From Burkholderiales bacterium (GTDB lineage Bacteria; Pseudomonadota; Gammaproteobacteria; Burkholderiales; Casimicrobiaceae), in contig JANXNI010000096.1 in NCBI GenBank assembly GCA_025354165.1, forward strand, positions 1 through 64,000: a stretch of 64,000 bases of DNA, read 5' to 3'. Made by a program: the position numbers and the translations under genes. Below, one piece after another: positions 3,840 to 52,681 of the stretch; position 1 is the first letter of the stretch; each line of letters opens with the position of its first letter. The notes under the pieces were generated by a model. It made no database searches. It worked only from the letters and a program-made list of their open reading frames with translations, and was not told where the DNA came from.

Positions 3840-3959
3840 AACAGCTTTTTACTGGAACGCCCACTTCATTGGGGCTGGCAGCCGATATATTGGCTTATCG
3901 ACTTATGCCATTTCTGCCAATATGCCCCCGTATTGCGGTCATTTCAGCACAAAGCTGTT
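3840..3959. repeat. 120-bp palindromic dispersed repeat, copy R1
   Basis: Begins AACAGCTTTT and ends AAAGCTGTT. It aligns without gaps to the five other 120-bp copies in the window. Its centre reads TTATCGACTTAT, a variant of the GTCGAC centre of other copies. The right arm carries TGCCC and GCGGTCATTTCAG at the shared positions. It sits between the end of glnS and the start of exbB. Confidence 0.9.
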
Positions 3960-4015
3960 ATGCATCTAACTTCCCCGTCCGCCGATCAGCCGACCTTCAA
4001 GCGGTCTCGGACACG

Positions 4016-5758
4016 CTACGACGGCTTCCAGCCATCCTTCAACGTCACCGCGCGATTGAACACCAGCGCGCCGGGTTTCGAATCGATGCGATCTGGCGTG
4101 AAATAGCCGTTGCGTTCGAACTGGTAGCTCTCGTCCGCCTTGGCGTTCGCGAGCGACGGTTCGAGCCAGGCGTTGACTGATTTCAACGAATGCGGATTCA
4201 GATAGGTTCGGTAATCGCCTTCGCCCGAATCCGGGTTTTCGACGTTAAACAAGCGGTCATAGAGGCGCACTTCCGCCTGAATCCCGTCCACCTTGCTGAC
4301 CCAGTGAATCGCGCCCTTCACGTTGCGACCGCCGGTGCCGCTCTTGGTCGCGGCATCGTACGTCGCGAAGATCGTGGTGACGTTGCCTGCGGCGTCCTTC
4401 TCAATGCGCTCACATTTGATGATGAAGGCGTGACGCAAGCGCACCTCGGTGCCGGGTGCCAGACGGAAGAATCCTTTGACCGGGTTCTCCATGAAATCTT
4501 CGCGCTCGATGAACACTTCGCGTGCAAATTTAAAGTTGCGACGACCGCCGTTGTCATCATGGGGATTGACCGGGGCGGAGCAATCTTCGGTTTGACCGTC
4601 GGGATAGTTTTCGATCATCACGCGAACCGGGTCGAGCACCGCCATCGCCCGCCGGGCCGTGGCGTCAAGGTCATCACGCAACGCGCGCTCAAGATCGGCC
4701 ATGTCAATCCACTGATGCGCCTTCGACACCCCTGCGCGCTCGGCAAACAGCCGAATCGATCCCGGCGTGAAGCCGCGCCGACGCAGGCCCGCCAGCGTCA
4801 TCATGCGCGGGTCGTCCCAACCGCTAACGAGGCCGGTTTCAACCAGCTCCAGCAGCTTCCGTTTACTCATCACGGTGTAGCTCAAATTCAGCCGTGAAAA
4901 CTCGATTTGTTGCGGGCTCGGCGCGGGCAGTTTGCCGGTTTCAACGAGACGTTCCAGCACCCAGTCATAGAGCGGGCGATGCGCTTCAAATTCGAGCGTG
5001 CACAGGGAATGCGTGATGCGCTCGATGGCGTCGCTGATGCAATGCGTGTAGTCGTACATCGGATACACGCACCAAGCGTCGCCGGTGCGATGGTGTTCGG
5101 CGTGACGAATGCGATAAATCGCCGGGTCGCGCAGATTGATGTTGGGCGAGCCCATGTCCATCTTCAGGCGCAGAATGTGCGCTCCGTCGGCATGCAGCCC
5201 ACGCTTCATCTCATCGAACAGGCGCAGGTTTTCTTCGCTGCTGCGATCACGGAACGGCGAATTCTTTCCGGGCTCGACCAGCGTGCCACGATTGGCGCGA
5301 ATTTCATCGGCTGACTGGCTATCGACGTAGGCCAGACCGCGCTCAATGAAGTGCTGTGCGAATTCGTAGAGTTTGCCGAAATAGTCACTCGCGTAATAAA
5401 GATTTTCCGTAAACGAAAAGCCCAGCCACTCGACCATTTCCTTGATCGACTCTTCGTATTCAACGTCTTCTTTCACCGGATTGGTGTCGTCGAACCGCAA
5501 ATGACAAACGCCCGCATAGTCCTTTGCCAGGCCGAAGTTCAGGCAAATTGATTTGGCGTGACCGATGTGCAGATAACCGTTCGGCTCTGGTGGAAAGCGG
5601 GTAACGACTTTGCGGTTGTGTTTGCCGCTCAACTGGTCGGCATCGATGATCTGTCGAATGAAGTTCGAGGGTAATTTGTGTTCACCTTTGCCATCAACTG
5701 CCGTTTTCTTTACTTCAGTTTTAGCGTCGGTGGCTGCGCCCTGGGTCACGGAACTCAT
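4016..5758 (-). CDS. glnS: Glutaminyl-tRNA synthetase
   Basis: Charges tRNA-Gln with glutamine in the cytoplasm. The 580-residue class I synthetase has the HIGH motif in PEPNGYLHIGHAKS (HIGH at 64-67) and a KMSKS-type motif VMSKRK near residue 300. The C-terminal beta-barrel anticodon-binding region is complete. An N-terminal extension of about 30 polar residues precedes the conserved core. It is transcribed divergently from xseA across a 354-bp spacer and is probably monocistronic. Confidence 0.97.
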   Translation of the reverse strand: MSSVTQGAATDAKTEVKKTAVDGKGEHKLPSNFIRQIIDADQLSGKHNRKVVTRFPPEPNGYLHIGHAKSICLNFGLAKDYAGVCHLRFDDTNPVKEDVEYEESIKEMVEWLGFSFTENLYYASDYFGKLYEFAQHFIERGLAYVDSQSADEIRANRGTLVEPGKNSPFRDRSSEENLRLFDEMKRGLHADGAHILRLKMDMGSPNINLRDPAIYRIRHAEHHRTGDAWCVYPMYDYTHCISDAIERITHSLCTLEFEAHRPLYDWVLERLVETGKLPAPSPQQIEFSRLNLSYTVMSKRKLLELVETGLVSGWDDPRMMTLAGLRRRGFTPGSIRLFAERAGVSKAHQWIDMADLERALRDDLDATARRAMAVLDPVRVMIENYPDGQTEDCSAPVNPHDDNGGRRNFKFAREVFIEREDFMENPVKGFFRLAPGTEVRLRHAFIIKCERIEKDAAGNVTTIFATYDAATKSGTGGRNVKGAIHWVSKVDGIQAEVRLYDRLFNVENPDSGEGDYRTYLNPHSLKSVNAWLEPSLANAKADESYQFERNGYFTPDRIDSKPGALVFNRAVTLKDGWKPS

Positions 5759-6112
5759 TCGGGGTTCGACAATATCTATTTGTGCGGTTGCACATTGTAA
5801 CGATGCGCTTTTCTGCGCTCCAACGCACGTGCAGCAACACTTTGCAAATCAATATACGGGCCAACGCCACGTGCGGCACGTCTTTCACAAGCGAGAAAGT
5901 TGCCCACACTGATTGTGGATAACTCACCTGATAACTTCCCCGACGGCGCTCAAACCCGCATGCAATCGTGATGCGCTCTTGTGCTCGCTGACTGGACTAC
6001 AAAAAAGTAAACTCGATCAAGCACTTGCACCATTTTCTGCGCGTTTGCTGCCGATGACAACGGTCTTTCGCCAAGACAATTCTTAACCACACTTTTAGCC
6101 GCGAAAAAAATT
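5759..6112. other. glnS/xseA divergent intergenic region
   Basis: 354 bp without a convincing gene, presumably holding promoters for glnS (leftward) and xseA (rightward). The only notable site is a perfect DnaA-box match, TTATCCACA on the minus strand at 5914-5922. A weaker TTGCCCACA lies at 5900-5908 on the plus strand. One perfect box is not evidence for an origin. Several short inverted repeats are present, but none resembles a known RNA. Confidence 0.4.
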
Positions 6113-7471: not shown

Positions 7472-7661
7472 CTTGCACTGGTTGCCGTGTTTTTAGAAGT
7501 CTTGCGCACCAAAATATCGCGCAATTCGAGCATTTTTCGCGGCATCTGTATGTTTTTATTGAAGCTTTCGCGAAATGGGTCAATCGTTCAAGAAACGCTT
7601 TGCATCAACATGCCAATGACATAACATCGTCGATGATGCGTCCGTTTTGGGAAGAATCTTG

Positions 7662-10067: not shown

Positions 10068-10078
10068 GACGCACGATA

Positions 10079-13653: not shown

Positions 13654-15606
13654 CTAAGGCAGTAACGCCTGCAAATTCGCTTCGATCGTTGCCGCATTGG
13701 CTGCGGTTGCACTGGCACCGCTAATCAGCGCAGCACCCCGAAGGTTAAGCAGATAACGCAACACCAGAAGCCCGTCAGTCGCCGCCTTGACGCTGGCGTC
13801 GCCGTCCACGTCGAGCGCGTTACCGAGCGCTGCGATGTAGCTTGCGATGGTCGTGGCGTTGCGCTCGGCGTTGGCACCGATGGCGCCAGCCGTCAATGCG
13901 GTATCGCGCACTCCCAACAGGTAGCGCAGCAACAGCACGCCGTCGGTTGCGGCGTCAAGAGTTCCGTCGTTATCAATATCGAGGCTCGGCACGAATGCGC
14001 CGGTGGCGAGCGTCGCCGTCAACGTGGCTGCGGTGGCAGGCGCGGTGTACGTATGAGTACGCAGGCCCGAGTCGGACCAGCTGCTGAAGCGATAACCGTT
14101 ACTACCGAGATTTTGATCGGGCGCGGTGATCGATAGCGCTGCGCCAACCGCCGTCGTCACGGCGAACGGTGTCGTGCGCAATGCGCCATTGACGTTGAGC
14201 CGCAGCCCCGAGGGCGCGGAGTTGAACGTGATGGCCACGGTATTGGTGTAGCTAATTTTTCGCAACTGGCCACCGCTGCCGTAGGTGGTGTAGAAGAGCG
14301 CCTGAGTGCTGCCATCCGGCGCGAAGGACATCGAGGTAGCACCGCCGGTCGTGGCGGGCGGACCGAGGAACGTGGTGGCGGTCGCAATCGGCGCCGTCGG
14401 CACACCCGTCGTGGGAATCATGAACAGGCTGTTGCACCCGTAGTCGGCGATAAGGTACTTTCCGTCGTATGCCGCTGGCCACACCCCATTGGGTACGAAC
14501 GCGCCACCGGTAATTGAGACGCAATTAGTCACGTCGAGGCCCTGCCCATTGGTGCGCCCATACGAAAAAACCGGATCGACCATTGAGAGCGGAGTTGGGT
14601 TGCATAAACCGGAGGTACTGTTCACGAGATTCGCCTCGCGACAATTCCAGCCGTAGTCAGCACCGGGCTGCAATTCGTCGACTTCTTCGCGGCCGCTCTG
14701 ACCGACATCATTGATATAGACACGGGTGCCCGTCGCGTTCGAATCCATCGTGAAGCGGAAAGGGTTCCTCAGGCCCCACGCGAAGGTCTCCTGACAATGA
14801 TTACCCACGGTGGTCGCGCCGGTGACGCTGCAGCGCCCGCTGGCTGCGCCAATGAATGGGTTATCCGACGGGATGCTTCCGGTGCGCGTGATGCGCAGAA
14901 TTTTTCCTGTCAGGACGTGGGTGTCGCGCGAGGCATCGTTACCACCACCGCTTCCGGGGCTGGTTCCGTTGTAATCGGTACCGCCGTCGCCGACGCTGAT
15001 GTACAGATAACCATCCTTGCCAAAATGCACGTCGCCCGCGTTGTGATTGCCGCCACGCGCTGGCATGCGATCCACCAGAACGACTTCGGTGGCAGGATCG
15101 ATGATGTCCGCATTGGCGACCGTGCCCAGCACAAAGCGTGAGACCCGATTCGCCCTACGATTAAACGCGGAATACGTGCCGACCGGCGTGCCGTCACCTG
15201 CGTTCGCTGCGGTGTAGTTTGGCCCGCTGCAGTCGGAGCCGTTGCGTGCGGTGTAGTACAGGTACACATACTTGTTCATGGCGAATTGCGGATCGACCGC
15301 GACGCCGAGCAGACCCGCTTCGCTGACGACGCAGATTTTCGGATTTACCGTGGAGGTGCCTGCGTCAAAGCTGAGCGCCGGCGTCGGCAGCAGCGCGCCG
15401 CTTTTATAAAGCCGCAGCGCGCCGGACTGGCTGGTAATGAGTATCCGACCATCCGACGTGAAGGCCATCGTGGTGGGCCCGCTCACAGCCGTCACCAGCG
15501 TGTCGGAGAACCCGGCGGGAAGTGCCTGCGCACAAATAACGGAAGGCGCAAACGCGGTCAGAGCTGCGAGCGCTGCCGCGAACAAGGGCATGTATCGTTT
15601 CGTCAT
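13654..15606 (-). CDS. Secreted glucose/sorbosone dehydrogenase-like (PQQ-type) protein with dockerin-like tail
   Basis: 650 residues with a signal peptide (cleavage near CAQA). Residues about 30-440 match the beta-propeller family of soluble PQQ-dependent aldose dehydrogenases: GLLGVAVDPQF, GGNHNAGDVHFGKDGYLY, FAWGLRNPFRF and DVGQSGREEVDEL. A beta-rich linker follows. The last about 110 residues carry two dockerin-like Ca motifs (DIDNDGTLDAATDGVLLLRY and DVDGDASVKAATDGLLVLRY). It converges with the cytochrome-like gene, only 9 bp between the two stops. The actual sugar substrate is unknown. Confidence 0.85.
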   Translation of the reverse strand: MTKRYMPLFAAALAALTAFAPSVICAQALPAGFSDTLVTAVSGPTTMAFTSDGRILITSQSGALRLYKSGALLPTPALSFDAGTSTVNPKICVVSEAGLLGVAVDPQFAMNKYVYLYYTARNGSDCSGPNYTAANAGDGTPVGTYSAFNRRANRVSRFVLGTVANADIIDPATEVVLVDRMPARGGNHNAGDVHFGKDGYLYISVGDGGTDYNGTSPGSGGGNDASRDTHVLTGKILRITRTGSIPSDNPFIGAASGRCSVTGATTVGNHCQETFAWGLRNPFRFTMDSNATGTRVYINDVGQSGREEVDELQPGADYGWNCREANLVNSTSGLCNPTPLSMVDPVFSYGRTNGQGLDVTNCVSITGGAFVPNGVWPAAYDGKYLIADYGCNSLFMIPTTGVPTAPIATATTFLGPPATTGGATSMSFAPDGSTQALFYTTYGSGGQLRKISYTNTVAITFNSAPSGLRLNVNGALRTTPFAVTTAVGAALSITAPDQNLGSNGYRFSSWSDSGLRTHTYTAPATAATLTATLATGAFVPSLDIDNDGTLDAATDGVLLLRYLLGVRDTALTAGAIGANAERNATTIASYIAALGNALDVDGDASVKAATDGLLVLRYLLNLRGAALISGASATAANAATIEANLQALLP

Positions 15607-15675: not shown

Positions 15676-15805
15676 ACAGCTTTTCGACAAATTGTTCTAT
15701 GACGACCAATGCATAGGGGTGACATCAATAATAGACTGCAAGTCGACTTTATAGTTAATCGTCGATCAGCCCATATGCAATAGCGCTTCCACTATAAAGC
15801 TGTTG
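15676..15805. repeat. Palindromic dispersed repeat, copy R2 (130-bp variant)
   Basis: Starts AACAGCTTTT and ends AAAGCTGTT, with GCAAGTCGACTTT inside. The right arm from the GTCGAC centre is 60 bp, as in the 120-bp copies. The left arm is 10 bp longer than in the other copies. It lies in the divergent region between the sugar-dehydrogenase-like gene and phoH. Confidence 0.85.
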
Positions 15806-16075: not shown

Positions 16076-17518
16076 ATGACGCAATCCAAGTCGCGTGTCG
16101 TCTCCATAAATTCGCGCTCAGCAAAAACCAAGTCAGCGCCCACCAAATTGTTCGTGCTCGATACCAACGTCATGATGCACGATCCGACGTCACTGTACCG
16201 ATTTGAAGAACACGACATCTTTCTGCCGATCTGCACGCTTGAAGAGTTGGATAACAATAAAAAAGGCACGCTCGAAGTCAACCGCAACGCGCGTCAGGCT
16301 TCGCGATTTCTGGACGAACTGGTCAAAGGATTCGACGACCAGATTGCCGATGGCATTCCACTGACCACCGCGTCTGGCGGTGCAGCGACGGGTCGACTGT
16401 TCTTGCAAACTGAGCCGCTGTCGGTACAACTGCCGTCGTCATTCGCCGCCGGAAAAGCCGATAACGAAATCATCGCGGTCTGTCTGCACCTGCGCAAGAA
16501 AGATCCGAAGCGTCATGTGGCGCTGGTATCCAAAGACATCAATATGCGCATCAAAGCGCGCGCATTAAACGTCGACGCGCAGGACTACTACAACGACAAA
16601 GTGCTGGAGGATTCCGATCTCCTATACACCGGCATGACCGAGCTGCCAAAGGACTTCTGGGAGAAGCACAGCAAGGGCGTCGAAAGCTGGCAACAAGGTG
16701 GCTCGACCTTCTACAAAATCAGCGGGCCGGCCGTGGCGAAGATGCTCGTGAACGAGTTTGTCTACACCGAGGTCGATACGCCGTTTTATGCACGCGTGAT
16801 CGCCATCGAAGGCAAGATCGCCACGTTGCAAACGCTTCGTGATTTTGGTCATCACAAAAATTCCGTGTGGGGCATCACCGCACGTAACCGCGAACAGAAT
16901 TTCGCGCTCAATCTGCTGATGAATCCCGACATCGATTTCGTCACACTGATCGGTCAGGCGGGCACTGGCAAGACGCTGTTGACGCTGGCAGCGGGCCTGC
17001 AATTGACGCTCGATCAGAAGATATACAACGAAATTATCATGACCCGGGTGACGGTGCCGGTCGGCGAAGATATTGGCTTTTTGCCGGGCACCGAAGAAGA
17101 AAAAATGACTCCCTGGATGGGCGCACTGGAGGACAACCTCGAAGTGCTCATGGGTGCCGATAAAGAAGCCGGCGAATGGGGTCGGGCAGCCGGTAATGAT
17201 TTGATCCGTTCGCGCGTAAAAGTGAAGAGCCTGAACTTCATGCGCGGCCGCACGTTCCTCAACAAGCTGCTCATCATCGACGAGGCGCAAAATCTGACGC
17301 CGAAGCAGATGAAGACGCTCATCACGCGTGCAGGCCCCGGAACCAAAGTGGTCTGTCTCGGCAACATCGCGCAGATCGACACACCGTACCTGTCTGAAGG
17401 CTCCTCCGGCCTGACCTACGTGGTGGATCGGCTCAAAGGCTGGGCGCACGGCGGACACGTCACGCTACAACGCGGCGAGCGGTCTCGATTAGCGGATTAC
17501 GCTGCAGAAGTTCTTTGA
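16076..17518 (+). CDS. PhoH family ATPase with N-terminal PIN domain
   Basis: 480 residues. The N-terminal PIN nuclease domain (about 23-160) begins LFVLDTNVMMHDP with the first acidic residue at D29. The C-terminal PhoH ATPase domain has Walker A GQAGTGKTLL near residue 300 and Walker B LLIIDEAQNLTPKQMK. PIN-PhoH fusions (PhoH2 type) are ribonuclease/RNA-helicase-like proteins in characterised relatives. A start 66 bp before a TctC gene on the same strand makes cotranscription possible but not required. Confidence 0.92.
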   Translation: MTQSKSRVVSINSRSAKTKSAPTKLFVLDTNVMMHDPTSLYRFEEHDIFLPICTLEELDNNKKGTLEVNRNARQASRFLDELVKGFDDQIADGIPLTTASGGAATGRLFLQTEPLSVQLPSSFAAGKADNEIIAVCLHLRKKDPKRHVALVSKDINMRIKARALNVDAQDYYNDKVLEDSDLLYTGMTELPKDFWEKHSKGVESWQQGGSTFYKISGPAVAKMLVNEFVYTEVDTPFYARVIAIEGKIATLQTLRDFGHHKNSVWGITARNREQNFALNLLMNPDIDFVTLIGQAGTGKTLLTLAAGLQLTLDQKIYNEIIMTRVTVPVGEDIGFLPGTEEEKMTPWMGALEDNLEVLMGADKEAGEWGRAAGNDLIRSRVKVKSLNFMRGRTFLNKLLIIDEAQNLTPKQMKTLITRAGPGTKVVCLGNIAQIDTPYLSEGSSGLTYVVDRLKGWAHGGHVTLQRGERSRLADYAAEVL

Positions 17519-17583
17519 AACAAACCGGGCGTGGCGTCCGGTTGACCTCATACACTGGGCCCGAAGCAACAAGGAGGCTTAGC

Positions 17584-18549
17584 ATGAAACAGAAATTATT
17601 CGCCGTACTGGGTGCGGCCGCTGTGATTGGCGCCGTGGTCGCGTTGACCACCAACACGGCGTTCGCGCAATTCCCGGATAAAGCCATCAACTACATCATC
17701 CCTTTTGTGCCGGGTGGGGAGAGCGATATTGCCGCGCGTCTGCAAGGCAAAGTCGCGGTCAAGTTCACCGGCAAGGATTTCATCGTACAAAACAAGCCGG
17801 GTGCTGGTGGCGCGTTGGCGTGGGCTCAAGTCAACAATCTGCCGGGTGATGGCTACAGCATCGTCGGCAGCAACCTGCCGCATCTCATCCTGCAGCCGCT
17901 CGAAGGGGTAGTGCAATACAAGACAGACGATATCGTCAACGTATTCTTCTTTCACTATACGCCGGATGCTCTCGTCGTCGCGGCCGATTCGCCGTACAAA
18001 ACGTTCGCCGATCTGGTAGCTGCGGCAAAAGCAGATCCCGGTAAATTGACCATTGCCGGCAGCGGTACCAACTCAGCTAACCACATGGCTTTTCAGCGGC
18101 TCGAAGTTCAGGGCAAACTGAAGATGACCTACGTGCCGTTCAAGGGTACAGGGGATCTGACTACGGCCGTGATCGGCAAACACGTCGACGCCGCGCTGAC
18201 CTACCCAACCTTTGCTGTAATGAACAGAGAGAAAACGCGCATGTTGGCGGTTGCCACGCCCAAGCGGTTGCCGCAATTTCCGAATACGCCTACGTTCAAA
18301 GAGCTTGGCTTTGACTGGGTGGACGGTGCCTATCGCGGTATTGCAGTTCCAAAATCGACGCCCGAGCCGATCCGCAAGCAGCTATCGGATCTCTTCCTCA
18401 AAATCAACAATGACCCCGAGCACCGCAAGCAAATGCAGGACAACGGCTACGAGCAGATCGACATTACGTACGATCAGGTTCCCGAATTCATGAAAAAGCG
18501 CGTGGCAGAAACCATGCCGCTGGCGAAGCAAATGGGACTCGTAAAGTAG
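17584..18549 (+). CDS. Tripartite tricarboxylate transporter (Bug/TctC) substrate-binding protein
   Basis: 321 residues. ATG 17584 is set by a strong AAGGAGG (17571-17577) and gives a signal peptide MKQKLFAVLGAAAVIG, cleaved near TAFAQ. The mature protein has the Bug signature IIPFVPGGESDIAAR and the ligand-loop region NKPGAGGALAWAQV. It should bind a small carboxylate in the periplasm. No tctA/tctB is adjacent, as for most Bug proteins of betaproteobacteria, so the substrate cannot be inferred. Confidence 0.92.
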   Translation: MKQKLFAVLGAAAVIGAVVALTTNTAFAQFPDKAINYIIPFVPGGESDIAARLQGKVAVKFTGKDFIVQNKPGAGGALAWAQVNNLPGDGYSIVGSNLPHLILQPLEGVVQYKTDDIVNVFFFHYTPDALVVAADSPYKTFADLVAAAKADPGKLTIAGSGTNSANHMAFQRLEVQGKLKMTYVPFKGTGDLTTAVIGKHVDAALTYPTFAVMNREKTRMLAVATPKRLPQFPNTPTFKELGFDWVDGAYRGIAVPKSTPEPIRKQLSDLFLKINNDPEHRKQMQDNGYEQIDITYDQVPEFMKKRVAETMPLAKQMGLVK

Positions 18550-18583: not shown

Positions 18584-18703
18584 TACAGCTTTTTAGTACA
18601 AGTGCCGCTGCAAAGGGGTTACGCACCCCTTTAAGCGTTAGTTAACTTTCGCTAAAATAGCGCCCTCGTCCATATAAAGTAGGGCATTCACAGAAAAGCT
18701 GTT
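18584..18703. repeat. 120-bp palindromic dispersed repeat, copy R3
   Basis: Begins TACAGCTTTT and ends AAAAGCTGTT, exactly 120 bp. The centre reads TTAGTTAACTTT in register with the GTCGAC centres elsewhere. The left arm contains a strong hairpin, AAAGGGGT/ACCCCTTT. It lies between the convergent ends of the TctC gene and the second ParA-like gene, where it could also act as a bidirectional transcription barrier. Confidence 0.88.
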
Positions 18704-18751: not shown

Positions 18752-19456
18752 CTAAGCGATCTGCACAACGCCTGGTTGGACTGCAACGTCAACAGCCGTT
18801 TCCGGCACTCCCGCAGTTCGCGACCGATTCAACTGCTCGCGAATCCAGTTCACAAGAGGAAGCCACGCTTCAATCTGATTCTCGGTGCGTGATGCTGGCA
18901 AATCGTAAATGGACACGCCATCGCGCGCGCACTGAGGATAAACCACGCTGTCCGGAACGAACATCACGACCGGCAGGCCGCTACGCTTGAAGAAATTGTT
19001 CAACTCTTGCGCCATACGAGTACGACTATCGGTACGGCTACCAACCATTCCAATCGCGACTTTGCCAGATTGCACGTTCGGGTCGGCGTGTAATTTGATC
19101 AAAAATTTAGCCGTCGCTTCGATGTCAAACACCGAAGGATTCACCGGCACCAGAACGCAATTCGCACGCGACAAAAGATAGGTCCGATCAGCCCGCCGCA
19201 AGCGTGCGTGCGTGTCGATCACCATCCACTGCGGCGCAAAGGTTCGCAGCTCTTCCATGTCGGTCTGTTCGTTCCACGACATGATTTTCGGCAACATTCC
19301 GGGGCGCCGCGACAGCCAATTGGTGGCCGATTGCTGCTTGTCAAGATCCATGATCACAACGCGCTGCTTGGTCGAGGCGAGCATCCCGGCGATATTGGTG
19401 CTGAGCGTGGATTTCCCGGCTCCGCCTTTTGGATTAGCGACAAGTATGGTGAACAT
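18752..19456 (-). CDS. ParA/MinD-like ATPase (second of tandem pair)
   Basis: 234 residues from ATG 19456, which gives MFTILVANPKGGAGKST directly; the longer frame is rejected because the same motif starts the neighbour. The deviant Walker A KGGAGKST is near residues 10-17. The segment QWMVIDTHARLRRADR occupies the place where ParA proteins usually have D-T/A-P-A-G, so the switch motif is altered here. No ParB or parS-like neighbour is present. It follows its paralogue after 17 bp and is probably cotranscribed with it. Confidence 0.85.
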   Translation of the reverse strand: MFTILVANPKGGAGKSTLSTNIAGMLASTKQRVVIMDLDKQQSATNWLSRRPGMLPKIMSWNEQTDMEELRTFAPQWMVIDTHARLRRADRTYLLSRANCVLVPVNPSVFDIEATAKFLIKLHADPNVQSGKVAIGMVGSRTDSRTRMAQELNNFFKRSGLPVVMFVPDSVVYPQCARDGVSIYDLPASRTENQIEAWLPLVNWIREQLNRSRTAGVPETAVDVAVQPGVVQIA

Positions 19457-19473
19457 GCGGGAAGTGTATCGTC

Positions 19474-20148
19474 CTAACGGTGCACTGCCGGAGCGTGTTG
19501 AGTCGAGCCAGCTTTGGCAGCGACACGCTGTTGCAACCAGTGAAAAATCGGCGGCCAGTCTGACCACGCCTCTTCGGCGCGCGAACGCGGTAAATCAAAA
19601 ATAGAAAGCCCGTCGCGCGCAGCATGCACGTATAACTGCGAGTCGCGCACATGAGAAATTACGTCAAGCGACAACGGGGACAAAAAATCATCGAGATCGG
19701 ATGCGGCGACGGTGCGACCATCAACCTTCGAGCCCACAATTGCGACGGCTCGCTTGCCATCCTTCACCGGTTTCAAAGCGGCCAATTCGGTCAGAAAATC
19801 GGCCGTCGCTTCAAAATCAAATGTCGACGTCGACACTGGCACCAACACGGCGTCAGCCGCTTTGACCAACTCCGCCAGCTCCGCGCCGTGAACACCGGCA
19901 GGCGCATCGATGACCATCCACTGCGGCGCGTAGTCACGAATGATTTTGCTATCGGTATCAGGCAGTGCGCCGCGAACCTCAGGAAAGCCGCGGGGCCGCC
20001 GCGTCAGCCAGCGTGCAGCGGAGCGCTGCCGATCGCGATCAAAGACAACCACACGTTGGCGTTTGCCCGCCAGATACGCCGCCAGCGTCGTGGCAATCGT
20101 CGTCTTGCCCGAGCCGCCTTTTGGATTGGCTACAAGTACCGTAAACAT
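19474..20148 (-). CDS. ParA/MinD-like ATPase (first of tandem pair)
   Basis: 224 residues from ATG 20148, with GGAGG 11-12 bp upstream. Residues 1-20 carry the deviant Walker A motif KGGSGKTT. QWMVIDAPAGVHGAEL is the expected second acidic motif. It shares the opening (M-F-T-V/I-LVANPKGG), the DLPxSRxE C-terminal region and overall length with the downstream gene, so the pair arose by tandem duplication. The cargo is unknown. Confidence 0.87.
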   Translation of the reverse strand: MFTVLVANPKGGSGKTTIATTLAAYLAGKRQRVVVFDRDRQRSAARWLTRRPRGFPEVRGALPDTDSKIIRDYAPQWMVIDAPAGVHGAELAELVKAADAVLVPVSTSTFDFEATADFLTELAALKPVKDGKRAVAIVGSKVDGRTVAASDLDDFLSPLSLDVISHVRDSQLYVHAARDGLSIFDLPRSRAEEAWSDWPPIFHWLQQRVAAKAGSTQHAPAVHR

Positions 20149-30934: not shown

Positions 30935-30938
30935 TCAA

Positions 30939-31906: not shown

Positions 31907-32026
31907 ATCAGCTTTTCAATGAAAGTACCATTTCACATGGGCTAGAAGCGCAATTAATGGAAAGTCAACATTTGCCATAATCAACCGGCAGACCCTTATC
32001 AGCCGTCATTTCCTAGTCAAGCTGTA
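31907..32026. repeat. 120-bp palindromic dispersed repeat, copy R4
   Basis: Starts ATCAGCTTTT and ends CAAGCTGTA, exactly 120 bp, with GAAAGTCAACATTT at the centre and CATGGGCTA in the left arm. The right end overlaps the last codons and stop of the convergent tctC gene (stop at 32013-32015), so the element supplies the C-terminal residues of that protein. Confidence 0.88.
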
Positions 32027-32972: not shown

Positions 32973-33057
32973 GGGTGCGGCGGGGTGATGCGATAAGGTG
33001 CTAAGCGTAGCGCAATGCGGGAGAGGGGACGTTCTCCATCCCGCCGTTTTAGGTGGG

Positions 33058-34290
33058 TCAGTAAGTCTCCAGATGCAGACGCCCTTCGCGCCTGAAAATC
33101 TGATGAAGCGCCAGCCAGTCGAGCCCGTTCGTAACCGCCGTGTCACGCAGCGCGTCAAGCACGCCCGCTTCCATGCCTTTCAGGCCGCACACGTAAATAT
33201 GCGTGTTGTCGTCTTTCAACAATTTGGCGACCTCGTCTGTACGCTCCCGCATCACATCCTGCACATAGCGTTTGGGCTGATTCACCGCGCGCGAAAACGC
33301 AAAGTTGATGTCAATAAAATCTTTCGGCAGGTTCATCAGCGGCCCGAAATACGGCAGCTCCTGCTGCGACCGCGCGCCGAAGAAAAGCATGAGCTTGCCG
33401 GCGTTGTCCCTGCCCGCAAGACGCAGGCGGCGACGACGCTCGGTCATCGCACGCATCGGTGCGCTGCCGGTTCCGGTGCAAATCATCAGGATGTGGCTCG
33501 GCGCGCTGTTCGGCATCAGGAAGGTCGAACCAAACGGACCGATCACCTGAACCACGTCGCCTTTTTTCAGATCACAGACGTAGTTCGACGCGACGCCGCG
33601 AACTGGTTTGCCGTCATAATCAGTCGTGACGCGCTTCACCGTGAGTGAGACGTTGTTGTAACCGGGTCGCTCGCCATCGCGCGGGTTGGCGATGGAGTAC
33701 TGGCGGGCATGATGCGCGCGGCCCTGCGCGTCGACACCGGGCGGTATGATGCCCAGTGACTGCCCTTCAAGCACCGGAAAATTCGCGCTGCCGAAATCAA
33801 GCACGATGTGATGGGTATCGCTCTCGGTGCCGAGTTGGGTCACGCGGAAATTGCCGCTAACTGTCGCACTGATGAAGTTCTTGATGCCGTGGAGATTGAC
33901 TGTCGGTTGCGACGCCGACGCCGGAGCAACGACCGAACCGAGGCTCACGTCAGCGGCGTTGGTTTGAAGCTCGCCGCCACCGTTGTTGTCGAGCAAAGCA
34001 ACGGCGTCAACCGGCAAATCCGCCAGCGGAATTTCTTTCGGCAATTCGTCCCAGGTCAACTGATCGGCAGTGGGATACGCCGCCACCCGCAACACCGTCC
34101 GCCAGTTGTCAATCGAGCCGGTCGGACACGGCGAAATACAGGCCATACAGTGATTGCAGATGTCCGCATCGACCACGTAATTGCGCGAATCATGCGTGAT
34201 CGCATCAACCGGGCAGGTGTCTTCGCAGGTGTTGCAGCGAATGCAGATTTCGGGATCGATCAGATGTTGTTTGAGGACTTCTGTGGTCAT
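33058..34290 (-). CDS. boxA: Benzoyl-CoA 2,3-epoxidase subunit A (reductase)
   Basis: 410 residues from ATG 34290 ([10 protein letters not shown]). An N-terminal 2[4Fe-4S] ferredoxin domain (about 10-65) has [12 protein letters not shown] and [13 protein letters not shown] ferredoxin-NADP reductase-like FAD/NADPH module follows, with [11 protein letters not shown] and [13 protein letters not shown]. Transfers electrons from NADPH to BoxB for aerobic epoxidation of benzoyl-CoA. It lies 121 bp downstream of boxB; the gap contains a GTAGGGTGGGCA-type inverted repeat. Confidence 0.96.
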
Positions 34291-44452: not shown

Positions 44453-46099
44453 TCACTCAATCGCTGCCGCCGAATGCGCCTTCGCCCGCAACGCAAATTT
44501 CTGTATCTTCCCGGTTGACGTTTTCGGTAATTCGCCAAACACAATCTGCTTTGGCACTTTGAAACGTGCGAGTGCGGTTCGGCAAAAAACAATGATTTCG
44601 TCTGCGCTTGCGCTCTGGCCCGGCTTCAATTCAATGAAGGCGCACGGCACTTCGCCCCATTTCTCATCAGGCTGCGCGACGACTGCGGCGAACATCACCG
44701 CGGGATGTTTGTGCAGCACATCCTCAACCTCAATCGAGGAAATGTTCTCACCGCCGGAGATGATGATGTCCTTGCTGCGATCCTTGATTTTTATGTAGCC
44801 GTCGGGCTGCACGACGGCCAGATCGCCGGTATGAAACCAGCCACCAGCAAAAGCCTCCTGCGTCGCGGTGGTGTTCTTCAGATAGCCCTTCATCACCACG
44901 TTGCCGCGAAAGAAAATCTCGCCCATCGTTTCGCCGTCGGCGGGCACCTCCAGCATCGTCGCTGGATCGAGCACGCGCACGGCTTCCTGAAGGGGATAGG
45001 CCACGCCCTGACGACCGTTCATTCGCGCCCGCTCCTCGACCGACAGCGCTGCCCACGATGCTTGTTTGGCGCACACGGCGGCCGGGCCATAGGTTTCGGT
45101 GAGTCCGTACACGTGCGTCAGATCAATGCCCGCCGCTTCGCAACCCTCGATCACTGCGGCCGGTGGTGCGGCTCCGGCGATGAGCCCTGCTACGGTGTGC
45201 GTGATGCCGTCGCGCAGTGCGACCGGCGCGTTGATAAGCATGCTGTACACAATCGGCGCACCGCACATATGCGTCACGCGATGCTCGCGCACGAGCGGAA
45301 AAATTAGCGCTGGATCGACTCGCCGCAAGCAAACATTGGTGCCGGCAATCAATGCGATAGTCCACGGGAAACACCAGCCGTTGCAGTGAAACATCGGCAG
45401 TGTCCACAGGTACGTCGCATGGTGCGGCAAACTCCACGAGATTACGTTGCTCGCCGCGTTCAGATACGCGCCGCGATGATGAGTGACCACGCCCTTGGGA
45501 TTACCCGTCGTGCCTGAGGTGTAGTTGAGCGCAATGGCATCCCATTCGTCGTGCGGCAATTGCCATGCGTAGTTCGCGTCACCGCTTGCGAGAAACTCCT
45601 CGTAGTTGATGCTTCCGAGATGCTTGCCAACGGGCGCACTGGCATCCTCCACCTCGACGACGAAAGGCGCTGCGTCACCGAGCAGCGCAAGCGCCTTTTC
45701 GACGACAGCGGAGTATTCGCGATCCGTGAGCAACACTTTTGCCTCGCCATGTTGCAGCATGAAAGCAATGGCTTCGGCGTCGAGCCGTGTGTTCAGCGTG
45801 TTGAGCACAGCGCCGGACATGGGAATCCCAAAATGCACTTCAAACATCGCGGGCACATTGGGCAACATCACCGCCACGGTGTCGCCTCTGGCAACGCCAT
45901 GCGCTGCGAGCGCCGAAGCAAGGCGGCGGCTGCGCGAGTATGTTTCACGCCAGGTTTGCCGACGCTCGCCGTAGATCACGGCCAGTGCTTCGGGATACAC
46001 ATGCGCGGCGCGCTCAATGTATGACAGCGGCGAGAGTGCCACGAAATTCGCTGCGTTTTTTTCGAGGCCGATATCGTAGTGATTCGATGGGTGTTGCAT
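44453..46099 (-). CDS. AMP-forming acyl-CoA synthetase
   Basis: 548 residues from ATG 46099, supported by GGAGA 6 bp upstream; the longer frame reaches into repeat R5 and is rejected. Motifs: YTSGTTGNPKG (P-loop), YGLTETYGP, WFHTGDLAV and the catalytic Lys in PKTSTGKIQK. The overall pattern is closest to medium-chain/AlkK-like and dimethylsulfoniopropionate-type ligases, for which substrates are varied. It is not adjacent to other fatty-acid genes, so the substrate stays open. Confidence 0.9.
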   Translation of the reverse strand: MQHPSNHYDIGLEKNAANFVALSPLSYIERAAHVYPEALAVIYGERRQTWRETYSRSRRLASALAAHGVARGDTVAVMLPNVPAMFEVHFGIPMSGAVLNTLNTRLDAEAIAFMLQHGEAKVLLTDREYSAVVEKALALLGDAAPFVVEVEDASAPVGKHLGSINYEEFLASGDANYAWQLPHDEWDAIALNYTSGTTGNPKGVVTHHRGAYLNAASNVISWSLPHHATYLWTLPMFHCNGWCFPWTIALIAGTNVCLRRVDPALIFPLVREHRVTHMCGAPIVYSMLINAPVALRDGITHTVAGLIAGAAPPAAVIEGCEAAGIDLTHVYGLTETYGPAAVCAKQASWAALSVEERARMNGRQGVAYPLQEAVRVLDPATMLEVPADGETMGEIFFRGNVVMKGYLKNTTATQEAFAGGWFHTGDLAVVQPDGYIKIKDRSKDIIISGGENISSIEVEDVLHKHPAVMFAAVVAQPDEKWGEVPCAFIELKPGQSASADEIIVFCRTALARFKVPKQIVFGELPKTSTGKIQKFALRAKAHSAAAIE

Positions 46100-46192
46100 G
46101 GTTTCTCCTTGCGGCATATTTTTTTGCTGACGGGCAATGCTTGCTATGAGCGGTGTCTGAGCCATCCGCAAAAGCGGCGGCATAGTTGCCAA

Positions 46193-46312
46193 TCAGCTTT
46201 TTCGCAGAACCCATACTGAACATGGGCCAATCGATTATTAGAAGCTAAGTCGACATTTAGAATAATTTGATCCGAGCCCAATTGAAATGGTGCTTTCATG
46301 GAAAAGCTGATA
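46193..46312. repeat. 120-bp palindromic dispersed repeat, copy R5
   Basis: Starts ATCAGCTTTTT and ends AAAAGCTGAT, a perfect 10-bp terminal inverted repeat. It contains CATGGGCCA, CTAAGTCGACATTT (centre) and GAGCCC at positions shared by the family. It is the best-preserved copy together with R6. It lies between the divergent acyl-CoA synthetase and binding-protein genes, in a 413-bp spacer (46100-46512) where nothing else is recognisable. Confidence 0.92.
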
Positions 46313-46512
46313 ACCAGAAGCGCATTACCGATGATGATACCCACGACCTGAAACAACGATAACCGAGACGCGGATCCGCGCGTTGATGCGGGTCAAGGAG
46401 CGAGGTGTGTTGTGAGGCGAAATTCGACGGGCTCGCAATGCGCCAAGCGCCGTCGGACGCCGAAGCCCCATACGGTCTAGCATGCATTGCTCAATCAACG
46501 ATTTTCACTGTC

Positions 46513-48312
46513 ATGCCGCTCGCGATTTTCCGACTGCGTTCGTTACTACTCGTCACCACCTTCTTATTGCCGTGTGTCAACCCACAGGCTGCGGACGCCA
46601 ACAAAACCCTGCGCCTTTCGACTTCCACCGCCGAAACCAGCTACGACAACGCGTTTGCCTCCGATGAGGTGTCCCAGACAATCACCGAGCGCATTATCGA
46701 GCCGATGTTGGGGTACCACTACCTCGCGCGTCCGGCGAAACTGGTGCCGCGCACGCTGGAAGCTTTGCCGACGATCAGCGACAAGGGCGCGACGTTTCTC
46801 TGCAAAGTGCAAAAGGGAATCTACTTCGCCGACGACGCCGCGTTCAAGGGCGCGCCGCGCGAGCTGACGGCGGCGGACTACGCGTATTCACTCAAACGCC
46901 TGCTCGATCCGCAGGTGAAATCGCCGTGGCTCTTTCTCGTTGAAGGCAAGATCGTCGGTGGCGACGAAGCGCGCGCAGCGGCAACGAAGACCGGCAAGTT
47001 TGACTATGACACGCCGCTCGCAGGCCTTGAAGTCGTGGATCGCTACACGCTGCGCATCCGCCTCAAGGTCCCGGACTACAACTTCGCCTACATGCTCGCC
47101 ATGCCGAGCACGGGCGCAAGCGCGCGCGAAGTCGTGGACTCCTACGGACAAGACATCGGCAGTCATCCGGTCGGCACCGGTGCCTATCAGCTCTTGCGTA
47201 GCGAGTATCAGCGCGGCAGCAAAACGGTGCTCGTAGCCAATCCGTCTTACCGCAAGCAAACGTGGGACTGGACGTCCGACGCGCCGGAGGATCAGGCGCT
47301 GATCACGGCAATGCAGGGCAAACCGGTGCCCGCCGTTGGTCGCATTGAGGTTTACGCGATTGAGGAAGGTCAAGCGATGTGGCTCGCATTTTTGTCGGGT
47401 CAGCACGACTATCTGCCGATCCTGCCGGCATCAATGTCAAACGTCGCAAAAACTGACGGAAAACTCAAGCCGGAATACGCAAAACAGGGCCTTCGCATGT
47501 TCCCGCGTATGAAACCGAACGTCTGGTACACGATGTTCAACATGACCGATGCGACGATGGGCGGCTACTCGCTCGACAAGATCGCGCTGCGCCGCGCGAT
47601 CTCGTTCGGCTATCCGCTGGACGAACAGATTCGCATCGTGTTTCAGGGCGATGGCATTGCGGCAAAAGGCATCACGCCGCCAGGCGTCGTTGGTTACGAT
47701 GCGAAGCGCCCGCGCGCTCATCAATACGATCCCGAGATGGCACGCGCCCTGCTCGATCGCTTTGGCTACAAAGACCGCGACGGCGACGGCTACCGCGAGA
47801 TGCCCGATGGCTCACCGCTGACGATTCCGTACATTGCGCGCACGTCGGGCGTCGAGCGGCAGCTCGCAGAACTCTGGAAGAAATCGATGGACGCAATCGG
47901 CATTCGCATCGCCGTCGAAACGCAAAAAACGCCGGACATGCGTAAGGCGGCGCGCCTCGGTCAGGCCAAGATGACGCGCGAAGGCTGGAACGCCGACTAC
48001 CCCGACGCCGAGAACTTCTTCCAGATGCTGATCAGCGCCACGGCGCAAACAGGCGGCGAAAACTACGCGCGCTTCCAGCTCAAAGACATGGATCAGCGTT
48101 ATGCCAAAGTGCACGCCATGCCCGACGGCCCGGAACGCAACCGGCTGATTCTTGAAATGGAGGATATCGTCAAGTACTACGCCCCGTGGATCGCTCCGTG
48201 GCACGACGTGCAGTATTACGTCGAGCAGCCGTGGTTTATCGGCTACAAGCAACACCCGATTGAGCATGACATGTGGGAATACCTGGATCTTCAGGAGCGA
48301 TCACCGAAATAA
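46513..48312 (+). CDS. ABC-type extracellular solute-binding protein, family 5 (peptide-type)
   Basis: 599 residues from ATG 46513, giving a leader MPLAIFRLRSLLLVTTFLL cleaved near PQAADA. The SBP_bac_5 domain fills the rest, with KGIYFADDAAFKG, DYAYSLKRLLDP and VPRTLEALPTISDKG. It should deliver a peptide-like or other ligand to an ABC importer, but no permease or ATPase gene lies nearby, so it is orphaned in this window. Upstream ATGs in the same frame lack an RBS. Confidence 0.88.
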   Translation: MPLAIFRLRSLLLVTTFLLPCVNPQAADANKTLRLSTSTAETSYDNAFASDEVSQTITERIIEPMLGYHYLARPAKLVPRTLEALPTISDKGATFLCKVQKGIYFADDAAFKGAPRELTAADYAYSLKRLLDPQVKSPWLFLVEGKIVGGDEARAAATKTGKFDYDTPLAGLEVVDRYTLRIRLKVPDYNFAYMLAMPSTGASAREVVDSYGQDIGSHPVGTGAYQLLRSEYQRGSKTVLVANPSYRKQTWDWTSDAPEDQALITAMQGKPVPAVGRIEVYAIEEGQAMWLAFLSGQHDYLPILPASMSNVAKTDGKLKPEYAKQGLRMFPRMKPNVWYTMFNMTDATMGGYSLDKIALRRAISFGYPLDEQIRIVFQGDGIAAKGITPPGVVGYDAKRPRAHQYDPEMARALLDRFGYKDRDGDGYREMPDGSPLTIPYIARTSGVERQLAELWKKSMDAIGIRIAVETQKTPDMRKAARLGQAKMTREGWNADYPDAENFFQMLISATAQTGGENYARFQLKDMDQRYAKVHAMPDGPERNRLILEMEDIVKYYAPWIAPWHDVQYYVEQPWFIGYKQHPIEHDMWEYLDLQERSPK

Positions 48313-48535
48313 GATACGCCCCCAGCGCGACGCTGTCGCTATCCAGAACGCGCCTCCGTCCATACGGAACCGCAAATTTGTAGTAAGGGGATGATCATGC
48401 CGCACCGTCCTGGCTCGACAATTTATGTATTTCGGGTGGTCCGCAATTCGAACGACACCTACTGACGACCCCAAATAGCTGGACGGATCGGCGGTACGTC
48501 CGATAGATGCGACGACGAAGAACGACTTTGTGCGC

Positions 48536-49483: not shown

Positions 49484-49563
49484 GTTGGCGGAAATTTTAA
49501 GCGGCGACCACGCGCTCCGTGATTAGCGCCTCGCTTTTTCCGTACAACCGACCAAACAGCAGA

Positions 49564-50298: not shown

Positions 50299-50404
50299 GG
50301 GCGTCGGAAGATTATTGATTTATGAGCAGCACGAATCGGTTTGGAGTGTGCATCAGATTGGCACTCGGATTGCGTTAATTCAATCGCCGACATCCGCGAA
50401 TTTG

Positions 50405-50428
50405 CCGGTGCCTGACATCAGACACCGG
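50405..50428. other. Hairpin between a TctC gene and the RraA-like gene
   Basis: CCGGTG-C-CTGA / TCAG-A-CACCGG forms a compact stem 8 bp downstream of the tctC stop (reading leftward). There is no T-run, so it may stabilise mRNA or attenuate rather than terminate. Confidence 0.5.
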
Positions 50429-50435
50429 TGATCGG

Positions 50436-51413
50436 TCAATCCGCTTTTGCGCCGGAATCTTTCACCACTTTGACCCACTTCGCGATTTCGCGATTTTGAT
50501 AGGCAGCGAGCTCGTCCGGCGTGCTGCCCACCGGGTCCAGGCCGCTGTCGGTAAGGCGTTTGGTGACCTCGGGGCTTTTGAGAATTTTGCGCACTTCTGC
50601 CTGCAATTTGTCGATGATCGGCTTCGGCGTGTGGGCCGGCGCAAACAGCGCGAACCAGCTCACCGCTTCAAACCCCGGCAAACCGGATTCGGCAATCGTC
50701 GGGATGTCCGGCGCAGCGGGCGAACGGGTGCTGCTGGTCACGCCCAAGGCGCGCAGCTTGCCGTCGCGTACGAGCGCGAGGCTCGACGGCATGTTGTCAA
50801 ACATCATGGTGACTCGTCCGCCGACCACGTCAGGAATCGCGGTCGCGCGCCCTTTATACGGGATGTGGATCATGTCGATTCCGGTCATCGTTTTGAACAG
50901 TTCGCCGGAGACGTGAATCGACGTGCCCGAGCCGCTGGAGGCAAAGGTCATCTTGCCCTCCTTCTTGCCAAGCGCGATGAAATCCTTCAAGTTTTTTGCC
51001 GGCACATCGTTGTTGATCACCAGCATGTTCGGCGTCGTCGCGAGCAGGGTAATCGGCGTGAAATCCTTGACCATGTCGTACGGCATTTTTGAATACAGCG
51101 CGCCGTTGATCGAGTGCGTGCCCACGGTACCGACGACAAGGGTGTAGCCGTCCGGCGGTGATTTGGCTACGAAGTCAGCGCCTAGATTTCCCCCCGCGCC
51201 TGGCTTGTTGTCCACGATCACCGGCTGGCCCCAGGCCGCTGTCAGCCGCTCGCCGAGAATTCGCGCCAAAATATCCGGCGCTCCTCCTGGAGTGAAGGTC
51301 ACTACGATTTTCATCGGCTTGTCGGGGAATGTGGCAGCGCCGGTTTGGGCGAACGCGTGGCCGCTAAGCGCAATCATCGCCGACACAACGAGCGATCTGA
51401 GATGGTGTTTCAT
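50436..51413 (-). CDS. Bug/TctC substrate-binding protein
   Basis: 325 residues from ATG 51413, set by AGGAGGA about 6 bp upstream, with a leader MKHHLRSLVVSAMIALSGHA cleaved near AFAQ. Hallmarks: IVVTFTPGGAPDILAR and DNKPGAGGNLGADFVAK. Binds a small carboxylate. Upstream of the RraA-like gene on the same strand, so both may act on the same acid; no tctAB nearby. Confidence 0.92.
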   Translation of the reverse strand: MKHHLRSLVVSAMIALSGHAFAQTGAATFPDKPMKIVVTFTPGGAPDILARILGERLTAAWGQPVIVDNKPGAGGNLGADFVAKSPPDGYTLVVGTVGTHSINGALYSKMPYDMVKDFTPITLLATTPNMLVINNDVPAKNLKDFIALGKKEGKMTFASSGSGTSIHVSGELFKTMTGIDMIHIPYKGRATAIPDVVGGRVTMMFDNMPSSLALVRDGKLRALGVTSSTRSPAAPDIPTIAESGLPGFEAVSWFALFAPAHTPKPIIDKLQAEVRKILKSPEVTKRLTDSGLDPVGSTPDELAAYQNREIAKWVKVVKDSGAKAD

Positions 51414-51530
51414 ACAAGTCCTCCTAAGGTGACGCGATAGTAGCCACGACGCAGCGCAACATGACCTTCGGCGTGTCACTTCGTCGGCGATTGAATGCGG
51501 TTTCGCCGCTCACTGCGAAGTTCCTAAACA

Positions 51531-51650
51531 ATCAGCTTTTGGCTGTAGCCCACGTTTCTTATGGGCTAGCTCTAACAATCTGCTAAAGTCGATTTGTGAA
51601 CTTTTGTGCGTGTAGCCCTTAATAAGTGGTCGTTTCACGCAAAAGCTGAG
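51531..51650. repeat. 120-bp palindromic dispersed repeat, copy R6
   Basis: Starts ATCAGCTTTT and ends AAAAGCTGAG. GGGCTA (positions 33-38) and its mirror TAGCCC (83-88) are both intact. CTAAAGTCGATTT is at the centre. It lies in the divergent spacer between tctC and the Mrr-like gene. Confidence 0.92.
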
Positions 51651-51947
51651 CGTTTCAACAGAAGTGCAAGTCGTGTTTTTTGCGCGTTCCAGATTGAGCG
51701 CCAAAAGCGGAGACTGAATGACGTCGTCGGTCGCGGACGAGATGTGCGATGGTGGCGTCTGGGCGCGGGTGGGGGTGGTGGAGGATTGCCGGACGAGTTC
51801 GCCATTGAAGCCAATGGCGATGCAGCGATCAGGGTCAATGAGATGACCGTTTTGCGACTTTGCGCTGACAATCGGCGAAATCTGTCGCACAATGGCGACT
51901 TGATCAGTTTTGTCCTACTTTGGACAGCCGCAGACTCCTAATTCCCG
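51651..51947. other. Spacer upstream of the Mrr-like gene
   Basis: 297 bp without a convincing gene. A plus-strand open frame (51606-51941) crosses it, but it begins inside repeat R6, has a Gly-run of low complexity and no RBS. A minus-strand frame is Pro/Arg-rich. I call neither. Confidence 0.4.
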
Positions 51948-52532
51948 ATGCCGAAGTTTTTGTCTTCAATCATTGATGCTCTGCGCAGCCTGCCGCTGTG
52001 GGCGGGCGGATTGTTGGTGTTTTTTCTCGGACTGATCATCTGGCTTTTGCGCCTGCGCACGCGGGATTTGCGCCGTGCGCGCGCGGTGTCGCCGAACTTG
52101 ATGATCGCGCCGCTGACGTCGTTGTCGCGACAACAGTTTGACATGCTGCTGACACAGGCGTTTCGTCAGCGCGGCTACGTGATCGGCGAGATCGCCACGG
52201 GCCAACGGTCGGCTCAGGGCACGGCCGATTTGGTATTGCGCAAGTCGGGCGAATATTTTCTGGTTCACAGCAAGGCCTGGCGCGTGGCTTTGGTTGAGGT
52301 CACTGCGGTTCGCGAACTTGATCATGCCATGCGCGCTCAGCGGGCGGCGGGCGGGTTCGTCGTCACCAGCGGCAGCTTCACGCGCGAGGCGATGGGTTTC
52401 GCCAGTGGTCGCAAGATTCAGCTAATTGACGGTCGAACATTGCGCGAAATGCTCAACGATACGGCGGGGATGCCGACCGGCGTGCCAAGCGTGGTTTCGC
52501 TGGGCCCGACCACGATGAGTAAACAGGCTTAG
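51948..52532 (+). CDS. Membrane-anchored Mrr_cat/restriction-endonuclease-like protein
   Basis: 194 residues. One N-terminal transmembrane helix (about 15-36) is followed by a basic stretch and a restriction endonuclease-like fold (about 60-165). The core shows LLTQAFRQRGYVIGEI, GTADLVLRKSGEYFLVHSKAW (D in ADLV, K in HSKAW as the D...(E/Q)xK pattern) and GGFVVTSGSF. The Glu/Gln usually before x-K is replaced by His. No methylase or specificity subunit is adjacent. A housekeeping membrane nuclease is more likely than restriction. Confidence 0.78.
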   Translation: MPKFLSSIIDALRSLPLWAGGLLVFFLGLIIWLLRLRTRDLRRARAVSPNLMIAPLTSLSRQQFDMLLTQAFRQRGYVIGEIATGQRSAQGTADLVLRKSGEYFLVHSKAWRVALVEVTAVRELDHAMRAQRAAGGFVVTSGSFTREAMGFASGRKIQLIDGRTLREMLNDTAGMPTGVPSVVSLGPTTMSKQA

Positions 52533-52561
52533 AAATCCCCGTGCGCGGCAATTCGCGCTGG

Positions 52562-52681
52562 TACAGCATTTTCTTGTAATGACGCCTGCACCGAGGCTAG
52601 ATGTGTAAAAGCCACTAAGTCGACACATCGTATTTATGGCCTTTCGCCCTTTATAAGCGGTGATTTCGTTGAAAAGCTGAT
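52562..52681. repeat. 120-bp palindromic dispersed repeat, copy R7
   Basis: Starts TACAGCATTTT and ends AAAAGCTGAT, with CACTAAGTCGACA at the centre and GAGGCTA in the left arm. Exactly 120 bp. It lies between two rightward genes, only about 30 bp after the Mrr-like stop. The remaining spacer to 52847 holds GGAAAG/TTTTCC and GCCTC/GAGGC dyads but no recognised promoter. Confidence 0.9.

Follow-up and report, generated by a model that had tools for sequence, protein, structure and literature searches.

A family of 116-bp dyad-symmetric intergenic elements found in one bacterial genus, candidate protein-binding platforms on the chromosome

What role might be played by a set of intergenic palindromes that vary in sequence, keep a fixed length and recur every few kilobases? 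The question is raised by seven such elements in a 64,000-nucleotide stretch of DNA (the window) from a Burkholderiales bacterium of the family Casimicrobiaceae. The elements belong to a group of betaproteobacteria that is known chiefly through environmental DNA. The window comprises positions 1-64,000 of contig JANXNI010000096.1 of assembly GCA_025354165.1, a genome of 4.72 Mb in 97 contigs referred to here as G000. The element family appears to be new in its combination of features, and a function for it is inferred. The reading we favour, to which we assign about an even chance, is that each element is a genus-specific nucleoprotein platform that would organise or supercoil the chromosome. 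This reading draws on the fixed and symmetric anatomy of the elements, their retention under selection in place, a helical rhythm in the flanking DNA and a spacing in G000 that is more even than chance.

Anatomy and number of the elements

All seven copies listed in a preliminary description of the window were recovered, although the copy at 31909 has weaker ends and was missed by a scan for end pairs. A sequence-only profile built from 71 copies matched these seven places and no others in the window at E <= 1 (14 matches, being the seven places on two strands, with E of 1e-14 to 1e-20), five of the seven having belonged to the training set. The fixed unit is CAGCTTTT...AAAAGCTG, 116 bp long and usually flanked by A/T at both ends. 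The constant length described previously stands, but the 120-bp unit then given consists of the 116-bp core and two further, mostly A/T, bases on each side; for the copies placed at 15676 and 46193 one base rather than two precedes the core, a trivial slip. The palindrome centre is exact, as had been proposed, with the dyad between core positions 58 and 59, and the additional 10 bp of the one long copy do lie in its left arm (left arm 68 bp, right arm 58 bp, core 126 bp). The seven elements are:

3842-3957, element 1, 116 bp; flanked by a glnS-like gene (4016-5758, minus strand) and a MotA/TolQ/ExbB-family gene (3154-3762, minus strand); no copy at the same place in G001, the nearest species
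15677-15802, element 2, 126 bp; flanked by a GSDH-family gene (13654-15606, minus strand) and a PhoH/PIN gene (16076-17518, plus strand)
18586-18701, element 3, 116 bp; in the convergent gap between a TctC-family gene (17515-18549, plus strand) and a ParA/MipZ-like gene (18752-19567, minus strand)
31909-32024, element 4, 116 bp; final 12 bases inside the 3' end of a TctC-family open reading frame (32013-33158, minus strand)
46194-46309, element 5, 116 bp; in the divergent gap between an AMP-binding gene (44453-46192, minus strand) and an SBP_bac_5 gene (46405-48312, plus strand)
51533-51648, element 6, 116 bp; flanked by a TctC-family gene (50436-51479, minus strand) and an Mrr-like endonuclease gene (51948-52532, plus strand)
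52564-52679, element 7, 116 bp; immediately downstream of the Mrr-like gene (51948-52532, plus strand)

The family is not confined to the window, since the genome-wide profile search suggested in the preliminary description found many further copies in G000. Both ends, exact and palindromically arranged, occur at 91 places in this genome, while the reversed pattern, used as a control, occurs at none. A sample of 849,200 bases, made up of the window and 40 stretches from contigs known to carry exact copies, contains 96 elements scoring at least 21 bits (the lowest being 21.0, 26.1 and 29.6), the next matches scoring about 12 bits. Because the sampled contigs were known to hold exact copies, the genome total was scaled in two ways, and is estimated at 400-530 (about 530 by density, and about 415 from the ratio of exact-end copies, 21 of the 96 in the sample and 91 in the genome). 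By end search, 71 of the 96 sampled copies are exactly 116 bp long, and these align without gaps; the remaining 25, with mutated ends, other lengths or positions at an edge, were excluded from the logo and covariation counts. The centre and both ends are recognisable in 76 of the 96, and the arms measure 58 + 58 bp in 65 of these.

In the consensus of the 71 copies the near-invariant parts are stretches of CAGCTTTT, the word GGGCTA and the central TCGA. The main dyad lies at 58.5, and weak ones lie at 25.5 and 91.5, 33 bp or three helical turns to each side. The element is A/T-richer than its own genome, the seven window cores having a GC content of 41-49%. Outside the ends, A/T content oscillates in register with the element, with pooled maxima about 2, 9-10, 20, 32, 43 and 54 bp out. 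Over the region 4-60 bp outside, the best period is 11.0 bp in G000 (n=81), 11.5 bp in G001 (n=31) and 10.8 bp in G005 (n=42), and in each of these three species the rhythm exceeds all 300 phase-scrambled controls. When 367 flanks are pooled, a signal persists at 60-120 bp (p=0.006) and, at 120-200 bp, lies above all 500 controls; beyond 60 bp the rhythm of single species is mixed. Such a rhythm outside the core would fit DNA that is wrapped or bent round a bound complex.

Spacing between elements is more even than chance in G000, and weaker or mixed in three other species. The 85 neighbour gaps in G000 have a mean of 8.7 kb and a coefficient of variation (CV) of 0.572, against 0.93 (0.78-1.10) for uniform placement. 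Six random-intergenic controls, run for G000 only, gave CVs of 0.857-0.886, and in each of them none of 1000 runs was as even. Gaps shorter than 4 kb make up 15% of the total, compared with about 36% expected. Uniform placement in G013 (35 elements) gives a CV of 0.936, and the observed value is 0.665 (p=0.015). In G005 (54 elements in 800 kb), where the mean gap is 14.5 kb, none of 52 gaps is shorter than 4 kb, compared with 24% expected. Elements with a close neighbour are thus rare or absent in the other genomes examined.

Distribution and selection in place

Of the 17 genomes of the genus, 16 gave matches to the model of 71 copies (E <= 0.001, up to 150 candidates being scored in each). 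Under stricter filters and at E <= 1e-4, no match came from any of 47 other genomes of the same family. The one genus genome in which no element was found is G016. Matches are sparse in three others: G009 has 11 weak places (E <= 0.01), G010 only 10 matching rows, and G002 weak divergent matches (at E <= 10, 12 rows spread over 8 loci, the best 1.5e-4), with profiles from other genomes giving one match or none in the first 100 kb of G002. A set of 80 named loci, nearly all betaproteobacterial and totalling 1.36 Mb, gave no profile match at E <= 1, two of the loci (L016 and L017) apparently belonging to this genus. Carriage by phage was considered and rejected: two IMG/VR stretches were found, but neither was matched by any of three profiles (E <= 0.01), and they were therefore taken as chance matches.

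Across the genus the arm words vary by species, with GGGGCTA in G000, GGTCnTT in G013 and, judged by eye, GGGCG in G009. The CAGCTTTT/AAAAGCTG ends and the central TCGA stay constant despite these changes, and the core ranges from 116 to 118 bp, the arms of G013 being 59 bp long. This appears to be a natural experiment in co-evolution, in which arm words change while ends and centre stay, seemingly without recopying.

Ten positional orthologue pairs between G000 and G001 were chosen by eye from synteny blocks, three of them lying just outside aligned blocks. Identity in these pairs is 86.5% (307/355) at high-information positions, 213/340 at middle-information positions and 41% (179/436) at low-information, or free, positions. 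The corresponding paralogue identities are 82%, 47% and 32%, and the coding anchors shown for the two species are 76-85% identical. The free positions are therefore near saturation while consensus and length have been held, and, as judged from these identities, purifying selection is acting on the elements in place.

The long form also recurs at one locus. Of 14 genomes examined at phoH, five (G000, G001, G006, G009 and G013) carry upstream of this gene a copy with a left arm of 68-70 bp, which lies 249-299 bp before the start codon and has 0-3 mismatches in ends and centre; the G005 copy possibly has a still longer left arm (74). At the same locus G005, G012 and G014 have profile matches in one half only, and the best candidates in G002, G003, G011 and G016 carry 6-7 mismatches. 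Among the 76 measurable copies in the G000 sample, the 58 + 68 arrangement occurs once. The simplest reading would be a single gain of one helical turn, which some members of the genus may then have retained. In several genus genomes there is, in addition, an element close to a second PhoH-like gene (L174 756-872, L164 623-734, L165 634-747, L168 2635-2746, L161 627-740 and L169 1317-1430).

Candidate functions

The preliminary description had suggested selection on geometry and a binding platform, and both are borne out by the fixed length, the dyad-symmetric consensus, the form longer by 10 bp in several species and the flanks in helical phase. We propose that each copy serves as a double-stranded, dyad-symmetric docking platform for a putative protein. 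A putative genus-specific protein or complex would bind the core and wrap or bend roughly 240 bp. In three of four species examined, the A/T-phased DNA outside each end extends over about five helical turns. With one site every 9-15 kb or so, the array would then serve chromosome organisation, and its possible roles include pinning the tips of supercoils, holding the borders of topological domains, or loading a topoisomerase or a machine of the SMC (structural maintenance of chromosomes) type. A bolder form of the proposal, which we consider possible but doubtful, is a chromosome scaffold written in DNA, in which hundreds of wrapping signals of about 240 bp, spaced roughly every 9 kb and read by a putative genus-specific protein, would mark supercoil domains chromosome-wide while the recognition code drifts and the sites follow it. 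What sets the limits of supercoil domains in bacteria, and whether DNA sequence encodes those borders, has long been asked. The elements are candidate sites whose anatomy can be read, whose spacing is even and which species have naturally gained and lost, and domain borders could therefore be predicted from sequence.

Several observations weigh against the platform. For G001 the CV of 0.68, measured over 36 gaps, falls inside the 1-99% range obtained with uniform placement, and that of G005 (1.02) is not below random, because of long gaps, among them a stretch of 105 kb in which no element was detected. The two outer dyads are weak, with z of 2.1 in G000 and 3.1 for their equivalents in G013, compared with 1.6-2.1 for other centres (1.6-1.9 in G000). 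No significant rhythm is present in the flanks of G013 (n=32, p=0.28), the best period within the core varies by stretch (9.5-9.75 bp over the whole half, 7.25 bp at 17-63 bp from the centre), and bacterial sequence periodicity need not mean bending (PMC7537859, cited from an extract). At phoH, the candidates in G015 and G007 are profile matches of the usual length. As RNA, single copies form more stable folds than their dinucleotide shuffles (mean z -2.63, 45 of 71 below -2), and sites have been gained or lost between G000 and G001. The search for a binding protein found none: across the genus and family genomes, counts of the gyrase C-terminal domain, H-NS and HU/IHF families do not track the elements.

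Two side observations touch on these points. The 105-kb element-free stretch of G005 (110331-215434 of region 1-400000, L195-L214) has ordinary GC content and interrupts a part of the chromosome that elements otherwise cover. H-NS family genes are unevenly distributed, six of the 17 genus genomes having a match and one of the 47 others.

The elements might alternatively mark a very large regulon, in which a multi-subunit transcription regulator would wrap DNA beside hundreds of operons, perhaps with Lrp-like geometry. We consider this unlikely, though not negligible. Its appeal lies in the intergenic position, the dyad symmetry and the weak phased sub-dyads about 33 bp apart. The median distance to predicted 5' ends is 126 bp. 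The intergenic placement counts for the platform too: of the 90 elements placed, none extends more than 40 bp into a predicted gene (six edge elements were left unplaced, and the home-made gene finder leaves starts uncertain), and all types of gap are used, an element being present in 24 of 107 gaps between convergent genes, in 22 of 106 between divergent genes and in 43 of 462 between tandem genes. However, the 24 copies of the 90 that lie between convergent genes are where no promoter is expected, 3' gene ends are nearer than starts (median 35 bp), and a regulon does not predict even spacing.

A second alternative, which we judge improbable, is that the elements may be strong sites for DNA gyrase or topoisomerase IV, cut at the central dyad, with arms and flanks wrapping the C-terminal domains. 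The E. coli gyrase motif, according to the extract of PMC6379681 cited here, is symmetric over about 130 bp, has a 10.75-bp GC rhythm on both sides and is enriched in BIME-2, and our elements lie near gene 3' ends. By the criterion of a flank rhythm of about 10.75 bp, the elements show 10.8-11.5 bp outside the core in three of four species and other periods inside it. The gyrase motif is degenerate, whereas here parts of CAGCTTTT, GGGCTA and TCGA are near-invariant, and the rhythm within the core is not 10.75 bp. GyrA C-terminal repeats are present in 16 of 17 genus and 44 of 47 other genomes; because these repeats are family-wide and the elements are found in one genus, the elements were not filed under gyrase sites.

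Equally improbable, in our estimate, is descent from a transposon or REPIN-like mobile element, of which the copies would be old relics, the joined ends of a lost element. The high copy number, inverted ends, genus-limited spread and presence or absence between species are all of the kind expected. Y1 transposase genes occur in 43 of 64 family genomes and are missing from G016 and G009, which have no elements and 11 weak places respectively, though G010, with few matches, has three. The copies themselves point the other way. Among 68 copies, with offsets of 0-5 on each side, no length of target-site repeat is prominent; of 36 offset pairs, the best gives a 3-bp repeat in 4 of 68 (expected 0.6%). 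Gene conversion or recent copying is rejected for the 71 copies, the closest of which are no more alike at the 44 free positions (maximum identity 0.59) than shuffled columns (0.60 on average). An element lies within 500 bp of only 1 of 20 chosen RAYT (Y1) transposase loci, several of which end at contig ends. With no recent pair, no consistent target duplication and this single RAYT locus, the burst of miniature inverted-repeat transposable elements (MITEs) raised in the preliminary description is disfavoured, as is a REPIN; species also share sites whose free positions are near-saturated. A relic accounts poorly, moreover, for a consensus held in place and for even spacing.

Sites that have the element in only one of G000 and G001 do exist, and in the two that are shown as alignments the whole gap differs rather than exactly 116 bp. 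By gap comparisons, five elements are specific to G000 (3842 and 18586 in the window, C19 33657, C55 14362 and C53 13794) and three to G001; the element at 18586 sits at the site of a 7.7-kb insertion.

A structured RNA, terminator or cruciform is very improbable. Pairing of the arms within a single strand would make mirror positions covary, but this is not seen, which disfavours both the cruciform and the structured RNA of the preliminary description. For the 71 copies, 59.9% of 3976 cells are paired compared with 60.7% after shuffling (score 0.178 against 0.187), for 28 copies of G013 the score is 0.515 against 0.509 shuffled, and RNAalifold predicts 0 consensus pairs. Within an arm it is neighbouring positions that depend most strongly on one another (19-21 and 45-46 are examples), and the top dependent pairs between arms lie off the mirror positions and are weaker or doubtful in meaning. 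The better-than-shuffle folding of single copies, the one point in favour, is explained by the palindromic consensus, though alone it does not exclude RNA. REP or REPIN hairpin arms maintained by compensatory change are not supported, given the missing covariation and the 0 predicted pairs.

Finally, an attC-like recombination or cassette site, or a long DNA-uptake mark, is scarcely credible: large insertions or deletions do affect 5 of the 8 alignment gaps that contain an element and 9 of the 37 that contain none, and accessory genes (Mrr, PIN, lectin) lie within some of the close pairs, but the numbers are small, insertions and elements both prefer intergenic DNA, the arms lack the covariation that is a feature of attC sites, and spacing is in kilobases rather than cassette-sized.

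Relation to known repeats and neighbouring genes

As the preliminary description had stated, no named family was matched: Rfam covariance models gave 0 matches in the window at gathering scores, and searches of the open-access literature turned up no such repeat. matS and parS sites, of about 13-16 bp, are likewise dispersed palindromes read by a dedicated protein (here a putative one), but the present elements have 116 bp, phased flanks and even spacing. RU-1 is identical with ERIC. It is a 127-bp MITE-like intergenic repeat (PMC2759123), similar in length class and intergenic position; compared by description, our elements differ in showing no sign of recent copying and in being selected in place. 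BRE, also known here from an extract (PMC3110155), is a dispersed intergenic betaproteobacterial repeat that sometimes occupies conserved loci. It is 75-91 bp long, 69% GC and oriented, with at most 29 copies, often in tandem, and differs by description from elements that are 116 bp, 41-49% GC in the window, symmetric, present in hundreds and not tandem. The BIME-2/REP sequences of E. coli resemble the elements in being intergenic, in many copies and proposed to have a role in genome organisation. REPs, however, are palindromes of 20-40 bp (PMC3733652, in extract) that form hairpins, whereas here the core is 116 bp without stem covariation, spacing is even and 1 of 20 RAYT loci has a nearby element.

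By analogy, the closest working counterparts are the E. coli gyrase motif (PMC6379681) and curvature-pinned plectonemes (PMC6301789), in so far as extracts of the two sources describe them. The former shares symmetry, a length of about 120-130 bp and flanks with a helical A/T rhythm, and differs from the present elements, which have near-invariant words and a rhythm beyond 65 bp from the centre and were found in one genus only. As for the latter, phased DNA could similarly position the tips of supercoils, but the extract of PMC6301789 describes no dedicated repeat family or core binding site.

Some neighbouring genes deserve mention. Elements 6 and 7 (51533-52679), 916 bp apart, enclose the gene for the Mrr-like restriction endonuclease. 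Some other close pairs or clusters in G000 adjoin PIN toxin, lectin and reverse-transcriptase genes, and some enclose accessory genes. A cluster with eroded ends adjoins a 1354-aa open reading frame with reprolysin-like metallopeptidase domains (L126 6745-10809). Among the ten window proteins scanned, three are encoded by TctC-type periplasmic binding protein genes (17515-18549, 32013-33158 and 50436-51479).

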